DNA from: a virus
Direction: 5' to 3' (one strand)
Virus record (IMG/VR): IMGVR_UViG_3300009790_000035
Location: 1-34,567 of that record
Length of the DNA: 34,567 bases
Within the stretch, counting starts at the first letter, position 1; each line of letters starts with the position of its first letter. The notes beneath the pieces are model-generated. The model was not told where the DNA came from. It was given only the letters and a program-made list of their open reading frames with translations, and made no database searches. Below, in pieces: positions 2,918 through 32,292 of the stretch. A program made the position numbers and the translations under genes.

Positions 2918-3490
2918 TTAGAAGGGATTTCCCCTTCCCGGTGCATTAGGAGATAAATAATTTACATTAAGTACATACCTCATTAAGCTGTCAGTTTGTG
3001 GACATCCAGCATGTGCTAAGTGAGATCTAAAGATTATTGCTCTATTTCTTTTAGATTTGACAGGTGCTCCGTCAGATTCAAATATAGTTGCCCCATTGCA
3101 ATCAGAGAAGTTTAAGATACAAGTCCAAAAGCAATTATCCTCAGTTACATAATGATGATCAGTATGGAACTTATATTTGTCTCCAATTTTCTCATGTCTT
3201 AGATCAAGATTTAACTTTGCTCTTAAAAGTGGTTGAACTCCTAATTCGTTAAAGATAGGTTCAAATCCTGCATAGTTATTAGACTGGATTCCATTTGCAC
3301 CATAAAGACTATGGACAAATCTTGTTCTACCATCATCATCATTTACAACACCATCATGTTTGTACCATGGTGTCTCTTCGCCTAATACCCAATTTTCAAC
3401 AGGTTTATAAACATCTAAAGGTAAGAAGTTATCAATAATCCATCTATCAGGTACACGGGAATTATCTTTGTTGGGTGTTTTTTTAATCAT
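2918..3490 (-). CDS. 2OG-Fe(II) oxygenase family protein (copy 1 of 4)
   Basis: This is a 190-aa double-stranded beta-helix dioxygenase-like protein. The iron-binding triad is visible as His109-x-Asp111 (FHTDHHY) with a distal His160 (LAHAG). Arg171, 11 residues further, would bind 2-oxoglutarate (LMRYVLNVNYL). The family couples decarboxylation of 2-oxoglutarate to hydroxylation of a substrate, often a protein side chain. The substrate here cannot be read from sequence. The start is fixed by a TAATG overlap with the preceding 51-aa gene. It closes the small-gene cluster and is followed by a terminator. It is not a recent duplicate of the other three oxygenases in this window, because sequence outside the motifs differs. 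Confidence 0.85.
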   Translation of the reverse strand: MIKKTPNKDNSRVPDRWIIDNFLPLDVYKPVENWVLGEETPWYKHDGVVNDDDGRTRFVHSLYGANGIQSNNYAGFEPIFNELGVQPLLRAKLNLDLRHEKIGDKYKFHTDHHYVTEDNCFWTCILNFSDCNGATIFESDGAPVKSKRNRAIIFRSHLAHAGCPQTDSLMRYVLNVNYLSPNAPGRGNPF

Positions 3491-3645
3491 TAGACTCCTA
3501 GACCTTTTTTAACTATTGCTAGTGCTTTGTCATCTAGGTCGTTATCTGATTGTTCGACTAACTTCTGTAGTAGATCAATAACGAATGTTTTAAATTTTGG
3601 ACTTCTTAATGCAGAAAGTACGAATGGTCTTGCGATTGCTAACAT
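3490..3645 (-). CDS. 51-aa small helical protein
   Basis: This short gene runs from ATG at 3645 to TAA at 3490. The protein begins MLAIARPFVLSALRSPKF, continues through a helical FVIDLLQKLVEQSDNDLDDK segment, and ends ALAIVKKGLGV. It joins both neighbours by one-base TAATG overlaps, which is strong evidence that it is a translated gene in a coupled operon. Hydrophobic residues fall with amphipathic-helix spacing, so it may associate with membrane or with a partner protein. I believe similar small proteins occur in other marine cyanophages, but I know no function. Confidence 0.8.
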   Translation of the reverse strand: MLAIARPFVLSALRSPKFKTFVIDLLQKLVEQSDNDLDDKALAIVKKGLGV

Positions 3646-23978: not shown

Positions 23979-24560
23979 TTATATTCTGTAGTGACCTACA
24001 TCATTTTTATATTTCATTCCTAAATAAGGAAGAACATTTTTTTGAAAAATATTAAAAGCAATAGTGACTCTAAGTTCATCGGTGTTGTTAGGTTCAACCC
24101 AATGCTTCACATCACTATTGAAATAAGTAAACGTTCCCGGGAAATGATTCTCAGGTACGTCAATTTCAAAGCTTGTACTTATAGGTGGTCCAGATAAAAA
24201 TATATTTCCTGCAAAAGTTTGAGAAACATTATCTGTTAGATGTTCAGGTTGATGCTGATGTGGAGCAATTCCTTCACCTCTTCTAAAAATATTTGCCCAA
24301 CAATTAACAGTACATTTACCAAACAATTCTTTAAATTTTGGGACAAGAATACTACGCATAGGTTCCATATACAAATAGTTAAACAACCTATTCCTTCCTG
24401 TCAGTGAGTCTTCACTTGTACCGGGATAGGTGTCTGGTCCCATTGATTTAACGAAGTCTTCTGTCTCAATAATGTAATCAGATATTTGTTTAGCTTCTTC
24501 TTCAGTAATGAAATGTTTTTCAATACGAAGGATCTCCTTCTGGTTCTTTAAGTTTTTCAC
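23979..24560 (-). CDS. 2OG-Fe(II) oxygenase family protein (copy 2 of 4), GTG start
   Basis: This 193-aa protein has a dioxygenase-like jelly roll. The metal site reads His101-Gln-His103 (APHQHQPEHL) in place of the usual HxD, with distal His153 (VKHWVEP). Arg164 lies 11 residues on (ELRVTIAFN) for 2-oxoglutarate. HxH at the first site occurs in the phage-enriched oxygenase group, so activity is possible but unproven. The start is taken as GTG 24560, because no ATG occurs in frame before residue 40; it overlaps the small membrane protein gene by 41 nt. It ends 8 nt before the glutamine riboswitch. The substrate is unknown. Confidence 0.75.
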   Translation of the reverse strand: MKNLKNQKEILRIEKHFITEEEAKQISDYIIETEDFVKSMGPDTYPGTSEDSLTGRNRLFNYLYMEPMRSILVPKFKELFGKCTVNCWANIFRRGEGIAPHQHQPEHLTDNVSQTFAGNIFLSGPPISTSFEIDVPENHFPGTFTYFNSDVKHWVEPNNTDELRVTIAFNIFQKNVLPYLGMKYKNDVGHYRI

Positions 24561-24741
24561 CTGTAAGTGCTTCTTCTAGTGATTGATATTCTTCTTCTTT
24601 TTTCTCTGGCTCGGGTGCGAAGTAAGTAACCGATGCTTTTAGTTTGTCAGATTGATGTGGCATATTATTCCAGTGGCGCATTACGCCGAACATAATAAAA
24701 AAGTTTGTAATTAATGTTGTAAATGTGAGAAAATTTTTCAA
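24520..24741 (-). CDS. Small single-pass membrane protein between two oxygenases, TTG start
   Basis: This 73-aa protein starts at TTG 24741, inside a TTGA overlap with the stop of the upstream oxygenase. The N-terminus is hydrophobic (FLTFTTLITNFFIMFGVM, residues 4-21), followed by a polar, charged domain with an acidic Glu/Lys-rich end (EPEKKEEEYQSLEEALTGEK). Topology suggests a membrane anchor with a soluble tail. It has no cysteine for lipidation. It sits in the psbA-oxygenase cassette, so it may localise or regulate those enzymes, or act at the thylakoid or plasma membrane. That is inference from context only; I do not recognise a family. Confidence 0.65.
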   Translation of the reverse strand: MKNFLTFTTLITNFFIMFGVMRHWNNMPHQSDKLKASVTYFAPEPEKKEEEYQSLEEALTGEKLKEPEGDPSY

Positions 24742-25340
24742 TTCATTTTACGAACGTTGAAGCTTAGAGACACTCGATACCCATCGACTCTGTTAGGAGA
24801 CTTAGGTACCAAGTGAGTTAAGTTGCTTGGAAATATAATTAGATCCCCTTCTTCAATATCTAATATGAACTGTGAATTTTGATCCCATATTCCATTATTA
24901 ATTGTTATTCCCTGTGCACTACAAACAAAACCATAGGTATTGTTGTCGCGTACAAAGATAGCAGGATAGTCTAGATCCTTATCAAAGTTAATATAGTAAA
25001 TTCCAGATAATATATTTGGCATATGATTATGAGCTTCTTGGTACATCCCGGGGGAGTGTACATTAAACCAAGTTTCTAGTTCATAATTGAAAGGATCAAA
25101 GTTATAATAATCCAGTACTTTTTTACACTCTCTTTCAATCTGTGGTATCACATAGCTTTTGCTATTTTCATATACTTCCTCTTGCCACGTATTGCAGTAC
25201 ACTGCCCACGGTGCTTTGTGAGTATCGTTATTACGAAAAGATTTAATTAGCTTTGGTAGTACAAGTCTCTTATAACTTTGATGATTTTCTATTTTGCTGT
25301 GATATATCGGATTACTAAATAGGGGGATAAATTTATTCAA
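24738..25340 (-). CDS. 2OG-Fe(II) oxygenase family protein (copy 3 of 4), TTG start
   Basis: This 200-aa protein is of the phage/cyanobacterial 'putative 2OG-Fe(II) oxygenase' type. It reads [28 protein letters not shown], with His104-Asn-His106 as first metal ligands. LTHLVP contributes distal His176, and YRVSLSFNV contributes Arg189. The SGIYY strand after the HxH is typical of this group. The start is TTG 25340, overlapping the TGA of psbA, with no obvious SD, so expression probably depends on coupling to psbA. Co-location with psbA and hli suggests activity during light-driven infection, but the substrate is unknown. Confidence 0.82.
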
Positions 25341-26419
25341 GCAATTTGTGGTGCTGTTAAAGCAATTTGTGTGGATTCACTTGAAGCTAAATCAAGTGGG
25401 AAGTTGTGTGCGTTTCTTTCGTGCATAACTTCAAAGCCAAGGTTCTGTCTATTAACAATGTCAGCCCATGTAGGGATAACTTTGCCATTAGTATCAACAA
25501 CTGATTGGTTAAAGTTAAAGCCGTTAAGGTTAAATGCCATAGTGCATATACCCATAGATGTCAGCCATATGCCAACAACCGGCCAAGTACCAAGAAAGAA
25601 ATGAAGAGCACGGCTATTATTAAATGACGCATATTGAAAAATCAGTCTCCCAAAGTACCCGTGTGCAGCGACAATATTATATGTCTCTTCATCTTGCCCA
25701 AATTTATAGCCATAGTTCTGCGATACTTCGTCTGTCGTTTCTTTAACAAGTGAGGAAGTAACCAGACTTCCGTGCATAGCAGCGAAAAGAGCTCCACCGA
25801 ATACCCCAGCAACACCAGCCATATGGAATGGGTGCATGAGGATATTATGCTCGGCTTGGAATACGAACATAAAGTTAAAAGTACCAGAGATACCCAAAGG
25901 CATACCATCACTGAAACTCCCTTGTCCGAAAGGGTAAACTAAGAACACTGCGAGAGCTGCGGATAGTGGTGCTGTGTAAGCAATAAATATCCATGGTCTC
26001 ATTCCTAGTCTGTATGAAAGTTCCCACTGTCTCCCTGCATATGCTGCTACTCCTATTAAGAAGTGGAAGATAATGAGTTGATATGGTCCGCCATTGTATA
26101 GCCATTCGTCTAAAGTTCCGGCTTCCCATATCGGATAAAAGTGCAGTCCTATTGCATTGGAGCTTGGAACTACTGCTCCTGATATTATGTTGTTTCCGTA
26201 CAACAACGAGCCTGATACTGGCTCACGTATGCCATCTATATCAACAGGCGGTGCTGCGATAAAGGCGAGAATAAAACATGTAGTAGCTGCTAGTAAACAA
26301 GGGATCATTAACACACCAAACCAACCTACATATAGGCGGTTCTCTGTGCTAGTAACCCACTCGCAAAACCTTTGCCAATTACTACTGGTGCTTTCTCTTG
26401 TTAGTGAGATTGCTGCCAT
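25337..26419 (-). CDS. psbA: Photosystem II D1 protein
   Basis: This is full-length D1 (360 aa), without intron or disruption. Ligands are intact with a one-residue offset from the standard numbering: Tyr162 (YZ), Asp171, Glu190, His191, His199, His333, Glu334, His338 and Asp343. Ala345 is the C-terminal processing point, followed by a normal extension ([15 protein letters not shown]). Position 131 (standard 130) is Gln, the form usually associated with low-light D1. The [16 protein letters not shown] end is typical of marine picocyanobacteria and their phages. Phage D1 replaces the fast-turning-over host protein so photosynthesis continues during infection. The ATG overlaps the hli stop (TAATG), so both are translated together. 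Confidence 0.99.
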
Positions 26420-27537: not shown

Positions 27538-29139
27538 TTATTCTGTTGGTGGTGGTGCCTGTTCATCAGCTACCATTTGTTGTTGCATCTCAGCAGCAAG
27601 CTGTGGATTCTTTTGTGGGTCCATCATTGGAGTACCAGCTAATTGTCCTGCTTGATCTAGTAAAGATTTCTGAGTTGCTTGAGCTTGCTGTTGTTGCATC
27701 TCTTGAGCCATCTGCTCTTGAGTCTTAACAAGGTTCAAGATATCAATACCTTGAGCAGCAGCTAACCTCTTGATTGCTTCTAGTGGCTGTACATATTTCA
27801 TCAAAGCTTCTGGTCCAAGGGTCTGTGCAATAGTCCCTATGAACTGGGTCAATGATTCTCTATCTTGTCCTCTACCCAAAGCATTTATACCAGCTACGAT
27901 TGTAGGTCTGACTATATCTTTAGGTAGTTTTGGTATTTGATTACTTCTCTGTAAAACTAATAGAGTTCTGTTGAGATAAGGTATCAAGAACTCAACAGTT
28001 AATAGTGAAAAGATTCCACCTAGCTGTTGCTCTAGTTCCAACTGAGTAAGGCGTACCTCCTCTGCTGTTACCCTCTCTGCATTCCTTACATTCATAACAA
28101 GGAAGTTTTCTTTTAGTCGTCTTTCAATACCGACAGCCATTCTTTCTGCTGTTGCAAAATCTGCTGTCTTACCTACTTGAACGACCTGTACATCCTCAGC
28201 TCGTCCTTGGACGATTGCACCATTACCAGCTTTAGCAATGGTTTGTGGTTTGGTTGTACTTGATGGGGATACCAGAAATATAACTTTGGCTGCTGCTGCA
28301 CTACCTTCAACGAGAGCTTGAGATAATCCTTCGAGAGTTTTTAAATCTCCCATGAACTCCTCTACTCTTCCTCTTCCATAGTCTTCGCCATCAACAGTAT
28401 TGAATCTTAAAACTAACCAAGGACTAGCATCTTTAGGTGCAGTGCTTTTGCTCTTAGGTAGAACCTTACCAAATACTTCTTGGTGCCACTGCCATCTGCC
28501 ATCTACTAATTTGACATATGTATATACTTCTACGTCATCTTTGTCACTGTTCTGAGTTTCATCAACAACTGTGTTGGGAACCTCTTCAGGGATATCAAAC
28601 TCTAATACCTTTCTACTGATTAATTCTTTAGTGACTATCTCTAAAACGTTACCGTTACCATCTCGGTTAACGACATACCTTGAAAGAGGGAAGGTCTTTA
28701 GACCATCTTTGCCCATAAAAATTAGTGCATTGCCACCAACAATTAAATGTTTAAGTGCCTGATGAATAGTCACCCTGTCACTTGACGCAGCAATGTAGTC
28801 CATGATCATCTTCTCAATCTTGGAGAAAGATAAATCAAGTTCTCCCTTTATTTTTGGGTCATCTTGAAATTCGCCTAGCTTGTCTTCTCTTACTTGGAGT
28901 TTGAAGAAGCTTGTCTGTGGAGGTAGGACAGCCAACATAAGTTTGGCTGCCAACGTCACACAGCAGGAAGCTCCTACACTTTGCCAAGGTACTCTTAAGG
29001 TTTCGTGGCTTGGTTTTGACGATGTGTCGTCTTGTATAAGGTACGGCAACGTGAGTTCTGAACATTCAACTGCTTTATCTAAGAACTGTCTTCGATCATT
29101 GCTTAGTTGATTGTATCTTTCACGTGCTGATGTCTTCAA
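27538..29139 (-). CDS. Portal protein / head-tail connector (gp8-like), TTG start
   Basis: This 533-aa protein is almost the length of T7 gp8 (536 aa). Recognisable blocks include RYNQLSNDRRQFLDKAVECSELTLPYL at the start, the WQSVGASCCVTLAAKLMLAVLPPQTSFFKL region (about residues 50-80), and LVEGSAAAAKVIFLVSPS. MNVRNAERVTAEEVRLTQLELEQQLGGIFSLL is the central block that lies near the channel. The C-terminus is Gln-rich (MQQQQAQATQ) and low in complexity. Twelve copies should form the DNA entry and exit ring. The start is TTG 29139 in a TTGA overlap with the proline-rich gene; there is no ATG nearby in frame. Confidence 0.96.
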   Translation of the reverse strand: MKTSARERYNQLSNDRRQFLDKAVECSELTLPYLIQDDTSSKPSHETLRVPWQSVGASCCVTLAAKLMLAVLPPQTSFFKLQVREDKLGEFQDDPKIKGELDLSFSKIEKMIMDYIAASSDRVTIHQALKHLIVGGNALIFMGKDGLKTFPLSRYVVNRDGNGNVLEIVTKELISRKVLEFDIPEEVPNTVVDETQNSDKDDVEVYTYVKLVDGRWQWHQEVFGKVLPKSKSTAPKDASPWLVLRFNTVDGEDYGRGRVEEFMGDLKTLEGLSQALVEGSAAAAKVIFLVSPSSTTKPQTIAKAGNGAIVQGRAEDVQVVQVGKTADFATAERMAVGIERRLKENFLVMNVRNAERVTAEEVRLTQLELEQQLGGIFSLLTVEFLIPYLNRTLLVLQRSNQIPKLPKDIVRPTIVAGINALGRGQDRESLTQFIGTIAQTLGPEALMKYVQPLEAIKRLAAAQGIDILNLVKTQEQMAQEMQQQQAQATQKSLLDQAGQLAGTPMMDPQKNPQLAAEMQQQMVADEQAPPPTE

Positions 29140-29396: not shown

Positions 29397-29587
29397 TAGA
29401 TTTCTTCCTCCATGATGGATCTTATATATTCAATGACGCTGGCTTGACCAGCTCTGTACATAATTGTGTTTATGTCTTCTTTAGGATGGATTGGTTTCCA
29501 ACCAAAATTTTCCTCAAGTTTATCTATCAGCTTGTCTAACCTTTCGTTGTGAAGCTTAAGCGTATTGAGGGAGATTTCTGTTGTCAT
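29396..29587 (-). CDS. 63-aa small helical protein
   Basis: Taken from ATG 29587, 32 nt inside the end of the RNR beta gene. An in-frame start 39 nt upstream is possible but adds only residues read inside nrdB. The product has a charged amphipathic helix (LKLHNERLDKLIDKLEENFGW), then KPIHPKEDINTIMYRAGQASVIEYI. Leu and Ile at heptad spacing suggest a short coiled coil. It ends in a TAATG overlap with the proline-rich gene. No family is recognised. It marks the switch from nucleotide metabolism to head genes. Confidence 0.7.
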   Translation of the reverse strand: MTTEISLNTLKLHNERLDKLIDKLEENFGWKPIHPKEDINTIMYRAGQASVIEYIRSIMEEEI

Positions 29588-30269
29588 GTTCAAAGAACGC
29601 AGGCATTCTGGCTGCCTTGGTGCCATTTAATTGTGGTGCTTTGCCTTCATACATAAGGCGATCACTAGCATCGAGCCAAAATTTTTTGCTCAAATATTTA
29701 TCGGAGTTTTCCATAGCCAATGGTTGCATGATCCAATTAATAGTTGCCTTTCTTAGTTTGTCTAATGACTGACTAGGTTTTAGACCTAGCTCGGCACAGA
29801 CTAAGGAGTTAGTTGCCACGTGGACTTGTTCGTCCCGGGAGATGTCTGCCGAAACAGTCATCAACCCAGCATCTCCGTTAAATCTGAAGAAAGGTAAGAG
29901 AACAAAGAAGATTGCTCTCTCGATAACTAATGCTTTTGTAATTGTGTGATCAGGATGAGCCATCCAAGCATCTCGTAGGCGTAAAGCTTCAGCTTCGGCT
30001 TTGTCATCTACGCCGTGGGCGTTGGTGATGTATCCGAGTGCTAGGTCATGCTTGATCTCATCTTTTACGTTTGATTCCAAAAGTTTTCTACTCTTTTCAG
30101 GAATTTCAGAGAGTGCTCCAGATATAAAGTCGCCAACCGGCAGTTCCATGTGGCGTATTGCAAGAGCACGGTAGATGGTTTCTTCTGCTCCATTTTTAAA
30201 AGTTCCTTTAGTAGGTTGGACCGGTGTCCAAGTTCTTTTTCTTTCTAATAATTTGTCGTAGGGGTTCAT
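29556..30269 (-). CDS. nrdB: Class I ribonucleotide reductase small (beta) subunit, radical tyrosine absent
   Basis: This 237-aa protein is shorter than typical R2 proteins (about 320-380 aa). Di-metal ligands are visible as Glu71-x-x-His74 (DEIKHDLAL), Glu117 (VIERAIFF) and Glu147-x-x-His150 (RDEQVHVA), with Glu42 a candidate for the first carboxylate. The position of the radical tyrosine, seven residues after the first Glu of ExxH, is Leu78, so a stable Tyr radical is not expected there. This resembles class Ic or Id enzymes that use a metal-based oxidant. It partners with the alpha subunit encoded just upstream (ATGA overlap) to make deoxynucleotides for phage DNA. I recall that P-SSP7-type RNR was reassigned to class I with an unusual beta subunit. 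Confidence 0.85.
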   Translation of the reverse strand: MNPYDKLLERKRTWTPVQPTKGTFKNGAEETIYRALAIRHMELPVGDFISGALSEIPEKSRKLLESNVKDEIKHDLALGYITNAHGVDDKAEAEALRLRDAWMAHPDHTITKALVIERAIFFVLLPFFRFNGDAGLMTVSADISRDEQVHVATNSLVCAELGLKPSQSLDKLRKATINWIMQPLAMENSDKYLSKKFWLDASDRLMYEGKAPQLNGTKAARMPAFFEHDNRNLPQYA

Positions 30270-31666
30270 TGTTGACAGTCACAAGCTAATTCATCGGGTT
30301 TGTTGCTCATTATGTCTGCCAAGTAAGCGTCAACTTCGGACTCATCCAATGCAGCGTAAGCATCTGACTTGTCCTGAACGTCTCCCATTACTTGCAGAGA
30401 ATAATAGAGAGAAGTCTGTGGACTAGAAAGCCACTCTTCTACAAATGCTTCATCGTAAGTCACCATGTCGCTCCAAGAATTGAAGCTATAGCCATGAAGC
30501 AAACCAGTTCTATTTAGCATAATCATTATTTGATCAGCTACTTTCTTATACGCATCCCAGCCTACCTCGCTGGCTATTTCTACGTTGCCATATTCAACTC
30601 GTTCTACCCCAAATTCACCCGAATCCCTGTCAACTGTACGTGATATAGGAGGTGCGATCTCAGGAGTTGCTGTGTAGCCATTGAGATCCCTGCTTCTATA
30701 CGAACAACTAGCTGTTGGAGCTATGGCAAATGCTCTAATCATGTTGTTCTCTCTTGCTATGTTAGCTGCTTCTTGTATGCCGAGATAAAGTTCACGCGCA
30801 GCTAACCCTGCGTATCCTTCGTAAGGTTGAGCATCATTAGTTGCTTCAAGAGCCTTACCAAACTCGGCATATGTAATCTTATTATTTGCTAGGAAGTTGG
30901 CTAGACCTAAGAGTCCGAAGCCGACTTGCCTGTCGATATCTGGTGTAAGATATTCTCCAGATTCTCCAACCCCTGTGACACCATGGAGCTTACACAAGCT
31001 GGACATGCCTTCACGGAAACCTGATCGTAGGTCGCCGATACGACAGGCAGACATATTAAGGTGCTGTAAGAGACACGTTCCGCGTGAGGGCAAGTAAACC
31101 TCAAGACAGACGTTTGAGTAGATTCGTTTTCCATTTTTATCGTGTTTTATTTTGTTGAGCCAGATGTCTCCCCTAGCAATTCCTCGTATAATTGCTTCCT
31201 TTGTTTTAGCTGAGGAATTAGCCCACCCTGATTGGGTAAGGTCAACACATCTTTTAACCCATGGGAGTTCTTCTCTTTTGACTTGCAAGAAGTCAATAAT
31301 ATCGGGGTGATCAATATCAAGGTGAAGAACGCACGCGCCATTGCGGTACGTCCCACCGCGTCTAAGTATTTCATTTAATGTTGAGTAGATTTTTGCGAAC
31401 GACACTGGACCGCTTGCAACAAGCGTGTCAGGTCCTTTATTAGTTCTCGTTCCCTTTGGTCGTAGTTTCGACAGGTGGACTGCGACTCCTGCTCCATAGC
31501 GGAGAGCGTGCGATACAAATCGCCAGCTTTGTTCGATTCCATCGCTTCCTTCCATTGAGTCTTCAACAACGAAGACAGTACATGATACGGGTAGACGAGA
31601 TTGTGGATTATCAATCCATGCTTGGACTCTTCCAGTCCGAGCTATTATGTTTGCGGTTTCTGCCAT
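30266..31666 (-). CDS. nrdA: Class I ribonucleotide reductase large (alpha) subunit, compact form
   Basis: This 466-aa catalytic subunit lacks an ATP-cone and is much shorter than bacterial NrdA (about 760 aa). Catalytic residues are present: Cys29 (LPVSCTVF), Asn185-x-Cys187-x-Glu189 (SNVCLEVY) and Cys198 (GTCLL). Tyr421-Tyr422 (TSLYYSLQ) match the radical-transfer tyrosine pair, and Cys462-x-Cys464 close to the C-terminus would re-reduce the active site. The YY pair and adjacent beta gene make it class I instead of the class II name often given to this phage enzyme. Loss of the ATP-cone suggests it is not shut off by dATP. It overlaps the preceding oxygenase by 22 nt. Confidence 0.92.
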   Translation of the reverse strand: MAETANIIARTGRVQAWIDNPQSRLPVSCTVFVVEDSMEGSDGIEQSWRFVSHALRYGAGVAVHLSKLRPKGTRTNKGPDTLVASGPVSFAKIYSTLNEILRRGGTYRNGACVLHLDIDHPDIIDFLQVKREELPWVKRCVDLTQSGWANSSAKTKEAIIRGIARGDIWLNKIKHDKNGKRIYSNVCLEVYLPSRGTCLLQHLNMSACRIGDLRSGFREGMSSLCKLHGVTGVGESGEYLTPDIDRQVGFGLLGLANFLANNKITYAEFGKALEATNDAQPYEGYAGLAARELYLGIQEAANIARENNMIRAFAIAPTASCSYRSRDLNGYTATPEIAPPISRTVDRDSGEFGVERVEYGNVEIASEVGWDAYKKVADQIMIMLNRTGLLHGYSFNSWSDMVTYDEAFVEEWLSSPQTSLYYSLQVMGDVQDKSDAYAALDESEVDAYLADIMSNKPDELACDCQQ

Positions 31667-32292
31667 CTAAAGTCGTAAGGGTAGAAGTTAAAATTAATTG
31701 CGATGCGTGGTCCCGGAGTTGTGTGACTTACGCCCGCGTGCATAGTGTTAGTAGGAAATACAACTATTCGATTCGCTTTACATTCCACGTCACCAATACC
31801 TCTGAACCTTGTCGGTCCATCTGAATCAAGTACGTAGTAGATGGCAGTAAACATATGTTTTCTGGCGTATTGATAGTCGTAGTCAAAGTGATATAAATTA
31901 CATCTGTTCTCTTTCTCAGGGTGAGTTAGGTTCACCTGTATTCGAGCAATGCAGTGCATACCTAACGGCTTGATAAACATATTGATGATGTCTTTCTTAG
32001 CCGTATCGAAATGCTGGGAAGTCCATTCCCCATTACTAAACACGTCAGGTGCTCTGATAATGGGAGCAACCATGAAGAATCTTTTAACATCTTCTACTTT
32101 CTCGTTAACAATCCCTGCGTTAAATTCCCAGAAGAATTTATCTTCTAATTTTCTATTGGTATCTGTAGTAGACATCCACATCTGGAGGTCATAATGATCG
32201 AGTTCATTTAAGAAATTATCGACAATACAAATCCCTGCTTGCTGAAACTTATCCAGCTTTAGATCTCTGACCTTGGCGATATTCGATTTCAT
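31645..32292 (-). CDS. 2OG-Fe(II) oxygenase family protein (copy 4 of 4)
   Basis: This 215-aa protein has a canonical facial triad His135-x-Asp137 (LYHFDYDY) with distal His185 (TMHAGVSH). Arg196, 11 residues later (GPRIAINFNF), binds 2-oxoglutarate. The first half contains FFWEFNAGIVNEKVEDVKRF and RAPDVFSNGEW. Of the four copies here, this and the copy at 2918-3490 have the classical HxD...H...R set. It is embedded in the nucleotide metabolism group, overlapping the DUF3310 gene by 44 nt and nrdA by 22 nt. That placement leaves room for a role in nucleotide or nucleic acid chemistry, but the substrate is unknown. Confidence 0.85.
   Translation of the reverse strand: MKSNIAKVRDLKLDKFQQAGICIVDNFLNELDHYDLQMWMSTTDTNRKLEDKFFWEFNAGIVNEKVEDVKRFFMVAPIIRAPDVFSNGEWTSQHFDTAKKDIINMFIKPLGMHCIARIQVNLTHPEKENRCNLYHFDYDYQYARKHMFTAIYYVLDSDGPTRFRGIGDVECKANRIVVFPTNTMHAGVSHTTPGPRIAINFNFYPYDFRWQKPQT

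Follow-up and report, generated by a model that had tools for sequence, protein, structure and literature searches.

Where does a class I-type ribonucleotide reductase (RNR) keep its oxidising equivalent when the small subunit, beta, has leucine at the position that normally holds the radical tyrosine? The question is raised by a pair of genes in a virus record of 34,567 bases (the window, meaning here the whole stretch of DNA analysed), which a preliminary description read as a compact class I RNR with Leu78 in place of that tyrosine. The finding of a Tyr-free beta is correct and already known. Harrison 2019 (PMC6370689) reannotated the RNR of phage P-SSP7 as class I, located its beta, recorded the lack of the radical Tyr and proposed a novel subclass ('If', Table 4), and Burnim 2022 (PMC9531940) set up the class Ø clade, presented a cryo-EM structure of the alpha of Synechococcus phage S-CBP4 and described the C-x-C tail of alpha, the short tail of beta and 'Phe or Leu' at the site; the substitution is thus not new in itself. 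What is added here is a wider census of betas, with Tyr at the site in 0/223, natural Tyr80-to-Phe variants that settle the doubt over Tyr80, and a set of invariant residues (W14, D70 and Y236) that can serve as a mutagenesis list. The cofactor of class Ø matters because this lineage, frequent among marine cyanophages, has been put forward as ancestral to both class I and class II. Burnim 2022 (PMC9531940) describes metal work as still difficult, a 2026 preprint (PMC12918982) describes the group, there named Cyano SP, as yet to be biochemically characterized, and a literature search covering mainly open-access papers found no class Ø biochemistry. The reading favoured here, which is probably right, is that class Ø RNR uses a Tyr-free, metal-centred oxidant that is relayed along a path in beta, through Tyr236 and the paired tyrosines of alpha, to Cys187.

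The gene pair and its neighbourhood

The window carries a cyanopodovirus gene set, including photosystem II D1 (25337-26419), a head-tail adaptor (27538-29139), internal virion and tail proteins, a family A DNA polymerase and an exonuclease. The two RNR genes lie between the head-tail adaptor and the exonuclease side, both on the minus strand: alpha at 30266..31666 (466 aa) and the ferritin-like beta at 29556..30269 (237 aa), with a 4-base overlap between the start of beta and the stop of alpha. The start of alpha is in turn overlapped by 22 bases by a minus-strand gene at 31645-32292, encoding a 215-aa Fe(II)/2OG-oxygenase-like protein (PF13640, E 2.5e-5, just under the cut-off; best PHROG label 'DNA endonuclease V'), which tblastn found in 3 of 344 loci (L001, L003 and L022), many of the loci ending before that upstream region. 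Together with those at 2918-3490, 23979-24560 and 24738-25340, this makes four Fe(II)/2OG-oxygenase-like genes in this one 34.6-kb record, some of them on weak matches. For two of the four, the best match is phrog_274 ('DNA endonuclease V'); phrog_274 members here also match oxygenase families, and the label may be a misnomer. The suggestion that the enzyme is an adaptation to iron-poor ocean is not supported, given four genes of this family in the same window, and the anti-correlation of Cyano SP abundance with predicted iron is explained in PMC12918982 by host range and intracellular metal. The drivers proposed in Harrison 2019 (PMC6370689) are of another kind, B12 limitation and nitric oxide, both of which the enzyme would escape.

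Among PDB sequences, alpha matches the 7URG chain, which is the S-CBP4 alpha (phmmer E 2.9e-213), and its sole Pfam match is the barrel domain PF02867 (E 4.4e-25), with no ATP-cone family matched. The missing ATP-cone suggests, as far as sequence can tell, an enzyme free of dATP shut-off; the S-CBP4 homologue has a specificity site with TTP bound (Burnim 2022, PMC9531940). The functional residues, all on the minus strand, are as follows. Cys29 (31580..31582) and Cys198 (31073..31075, placed by the alpha alignment) are the reducing cysteines, paired as are C30 and C196 in S-CBP4, and Cys187 (31106..31108), the thiyl-radical cysteine in N185-x-C187-x-E189, corresponds to C185 of S-CBP4. They are followed by the Tyr421-Tyr422 dyad (30401..30406) and, read from the sequence, a C-terminal C462-D-C464 tail (30275..30283). 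Across 180 aligned alphas (179 complete frames plus the window), C29, N185, C187, E189, C198 and the dyad are invariant except for single X letters, Y421 standing in 180/180 and Y422 in 179/180 with one X; before restriction to complete frames, YY lay inside the last 90 residues in 229 of 233 alpha frames.

The preliminary description had cautioned that RNRs of this group are often labelled class II, and the P-SSP7 alpha in AY939843.2 is indeed still annotated 'ribonucleotide reductase class II'. In NCBIfam the window alpha has its best partial match with NrdJ_Z, a class II model whose cut-off lies far above the score reached. Class II enzymes have no beta, and a cobalamin pocket replaces YY; with a beta gene adjacent and YY present, class II was rejected.

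The beta subunit and its radical-tyrosine position

The window beta matches phrog_6799 ('ribonucleotide reductase class Ia beta subunit', E 3.7e-132). Its identity to the P-SSP7 beta is 84.4%, and 56 of 50,697 phage records contain a match to it, almost all of them from cyanophages. Because it has no match in Pfam (PF00268 is also absent from the window's own record, 0/1) and a PDB sequence search with it alone gave no RNR among the matches, the case for R2 homology is carried by its relatives, the profile and the fold. PF00268 was matched by 25 of 54 beta relatives with E values of 1 or below (2.5e-5 for the best), and a profile of 54 betas searched against the PDB gave Chlamydia R2 as its best match, at a non-significant E of 0.24.

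All six ligands of an ExxH/E/ExxH metal site are kept, as had been claimed: Glu42 (30144..30146), the first ligand; E71 and H74 within D70-E71-I-K-H74 (30048..30062); Glu117 (29919..29921); and E147 and H150 within D146-E147-Q-V-H150 (29820..29834), all on the minus strand. These six, the second-sphere Asp70 and the radical-path Asp146 were listed by Harrison 2019 (PMC6370689), with the ligand role of Glu42 in its Table 3. Two further residues on the same strand are Trp14 (30228..30230) and Tyr236 (29562..29564), the latter a Y356-like inter-subunit relay (Burnim 2022, PMC9531940). The census of such residues drew on 344 loci (viral contigs, genome contigs and named phages) that gave 223 distinct betas besides the window; the viral scans took the best 80 loci at most for each of five queries, so that the sample leans to relatives of the queries and is uneven across lineages. 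Identical betas were merged, near-duplicates with another start were kept, and some records entered twice under different loci. Among the 224 aligned betas, the six ligands, D70, D146 and W14 are invariant where present, except for one X, with Asp70 in 223/223; W102 and W179 are likewise invariant wherever present. Tyr236 is Tyr in 219/219 rows that reach its position, which five rows lack, and is the sole invariant Tyr, while Y4 is Phe in 6 of 202 rows.

The AlphaFold model of beta (pLDDT 91.9, pTM 0.88, with the C-terminal 17 residues poor at a pLDDT of about 55) shows a class I R2 fold. Foldseek ranked Chlamydia trachomatis NrdB (class Ic) first, with a best E of 8.3e-4, followed by other R2 proteins, and on this ground beta might belong to class Ic proper and carry a Mn(IV)/Fe(III) cofactor. 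Class Ic also has the same six first-sphere ligands (Harrison 2019 Table 3, PMC6370689), the radical site of its reference sequences is Phe or Leu (PMC12918982), and Leu stands there in 18 of 128 class I R2 proteins surveyed (below). However, Asp70 takes the place of Glu119 in the second sphere, the group stands apart from class Ic in published beta phylogenies (Harrison 2019, PMC6370689), and VIA-align of the model to class I R2 chains (Z 19-21 over about 217 residues at about 3 Å) gives equal Z for R2 of classes Ia, Ib, Ic and Ie. A class Ic identity is accordingly judged unlikely. As modelled, the fold of beta is that of an R2, and fold does not tell the subclasses apart.

In class I R2 proteins, the radical Tyr lies four residues after the His of the first ExxH. 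In beta this position, H74+4, is Leu78 (30036..30038, minus strand), and H123 and F127 read in the 1syy chain of Chlamydia agree with the spacing. The AlphaFold model shows no break in the first metal-ligand helix (residues 58-85), and residues 71-80 align without a gap across nine diverse relatives. A profile-profile alignment of 224 betas with 61 class I R2 proteins matches E71 and H74 to metal ligands, L78 to the radical Tyr and W14 to a pathway Trp that is W in 61/61 of the class I set; the alignment is weak overall (probability 15%, P 0.0018), and given this modest score the placement of L78 is relied on because it agrees with the fold. Leu occupies site 78 in 220 of the 223 distinct betas and Phe in the other 3, so that Tyr stands there in none, L099 being a fragment without the site. 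That Leu78 occupies the canonical radical-Tyr position is thus confirmed at the level of sequence and predicted structure.

A Tyr in the neighbourhood had been raised as a challenge to this placement, namely Tyr80 (30030..30032, minus strand; H74+6), and if it were the radical site the enzyme would be an ordinary Tyr-radical RNR of class Ia or Ib. No conserved Tyr other than Tyr80 lies close to the metal ligands in the sequence, and 211 of the 223 betas retain it, but in the other 12 it is Phe, with at least six changes on a FastTree tree of 220 rows. Its side of the unbroken helix is also the wrong one, about 180 degrees from Glu71, whereas Leu78 is within about 40 degrees of both ligands (angles obtained by arithmetic at 100 degrees per residue), and shifting it to the canonical place needs a 2-residue indel within the helix. 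Chlamydia R2, moreover, has the same pair of positions, F127 and Y129 in the 1syy chain, with a Tyr-free site; Y129 is reportedly an activation-specific relay. Tyr80 was therefore rejected as the radical site, and a Tyr-radical enzyme of the ordinary kind is highly improbable. Since Tyr80 varies, site 78 is never Tyr and only the C-terminal Tyr236 is invariant, no Tyr near the metal site is indispensable.

An association between Tyr at H+6 and loss of the radical Tyr was considered in a survey of class I R2 proteins from sampled genomes, in which the searches supplied the best-scoring loci, at most 30 each; 149 loci gave 148 with an R2-like frame, from which 17 under 100 bits, repeats and the odd row L482 were dropped (n=128). 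Tyr at +6 was present in 42 of 47 proteins without the site Tyr vs 18 of 81 with it, and in a smaller set (n=61) in 25/25 vs 14/36. The pattern failed in five rows, contributed by the phylum search, that have Phe and His, and on the R2 tree the trait has only four changes, with two well-supported independent pairs and a sign test that is not significant; no claim is made from it. Additionally, the phylum of the Verrucomicrobia MAG behind L098 yielded class I R2 proteins (L363-L378) whose radical site, within the motif EENIHADSL(L/V)YM, is Leu.

A probable metal-centred oxidant and its proposed route

By analogy with classes Ic and Id, the loss of Tyr likely leaves a metal-only oxidant, a consequence that the preliminary description had drawn and that the sequences support. 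Its premise that classes Ic and Id both substitute the Tyr holds for the class Ic references and not for class Id, which keeps a Tyr that is unused (Harrison 2019, PMC6370689). For class Ø we infer the following path and direction. Beta, as a shortened R2-type ferritin fold, would bind a dinuclear metal site, whether Mn/Fe, Mn2 or Fe2, through E42, E71, H74, E117, E147 and H150 and there activate oxygen or reduced oxygen species. Because Leu78 cannot hold a radical, the one-electron oxidising equivalent would stay on the metal cluster, to leave by way of H74, D146 and W14 and then the C-terminal Tyr236 toward Tyr421-Tyr422 of alpha. The YY pair would then oxidise Cys187 and so start ribonucleotide reduction, while Cys29 and Cys198, along with the C-D-C tail, would cycle the reducing electrons. 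If the equivalent were stored on protein instead of metal, a conserved tryptophan might hold it, given the invariance of W14, W102 and W179 in the 224 rows. W14, however, which we take to be the counterpart of W48 in E. coli, aligns with the class I pathway Trp, so that a relay role explains its conservation. We know of no precedent for a stable Trp radical as a store in RNR, and storage of this kind seems very remote.

The beta tail is without the roughly 10-residue alpha-binding extension of class I (Burnim 2022, PMC9531940), and docking to alpha must therefore differ. It is conceivable, and offered tentatively, that the class Ø beta has a Tyr-free metal oxidant of its own, e.g., a Mn2 or Mn/Fe site tuned by Asp70, and docks without the usual tail. 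If so, it would add one more subclass by cofactor and might, of all living systems, come nearest to showing how a first ferritin subunit came to drive an RNR.

Class membership and nearest systems

Judged by its sequence, the window RNR belongs to the class Ø (Cyano SP) group already described in print, for which a clade of its own in an all-RNR phylogeny has been published with close relatives (Burnim 2022, PMC9531940). Its alpha is homologous to those of S-CBP4 and P-SSP7, minimal and free of an ATP-cone, with a YY dyad and a C-x-C tail; directly downstream lies a ferritin-like gene of ~240 aa with two E+ExxH motifs, and the radical-Tyr position, Phe or Leu in the group, is Leu78. Class Id, defined by a Tyr kept at the site and a Mn2 cofactor, does not accommodate Leu78, and class Ie, in which the metal ligands are lost and a DOPA-forming Tyr is kept, does not accommodate six ligands without that Tyr.

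Gene layout varies among related viruses. In Microcystis phage Mic1 (L345/L346), a class Ø-type beta (61615-62385) and an alpha (74598-76109; 42% identical to the window alpha) are about 12 kb apart, a layout that differs from the 'immediately downstream' rule for beta in Burnim 2022 (PMC9531940), and in eight related viral contigs (L102-L109) the 1.3 to 3 kb upstream of beta likewise show no alpha. The S-CBP4 record NC_025464 (L086) has a frame break in beta: the deposited frame at 3001-3618 stops early, at 205 aa, and the tblastn match to the window beta continues as a second piece.

With S-CBP4, the class Ø example of Burnim 2022, and P-SSP7, the Cyano SP example of Harrison 2019, the window RNR has in common an alpha without an ATP-cone, the YY dyad, the C-x-C tail, a small adjoining ferritin-like beta, Leu or Phe at the radical site and a short beta tail with a penultimate Tyr, and there is no difference of substance. 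Chlamydia trachomatis NrdB (class Ic; 1syy/4d8f) is alike in its Tyr-free site, with ligands E, E, H, E, E, H, its Tyr at H+6 and its fold, but it has E119 in the second sphere (FEEAVH motif) where the window beta has Asp70, and it is about 346 residues long, in contrast to a beta of 237 that is without the long alpha-binding tail; the published phylogeny separates the two. The class Id R2 of Flavobacterium johnsoniae has the same first-sphere ligands as the window beta but differs from it in retaining the Tyr and in its second-sphere Cys/Ser (Harrison 2019 Tables 3 and 4, PMC6370689).
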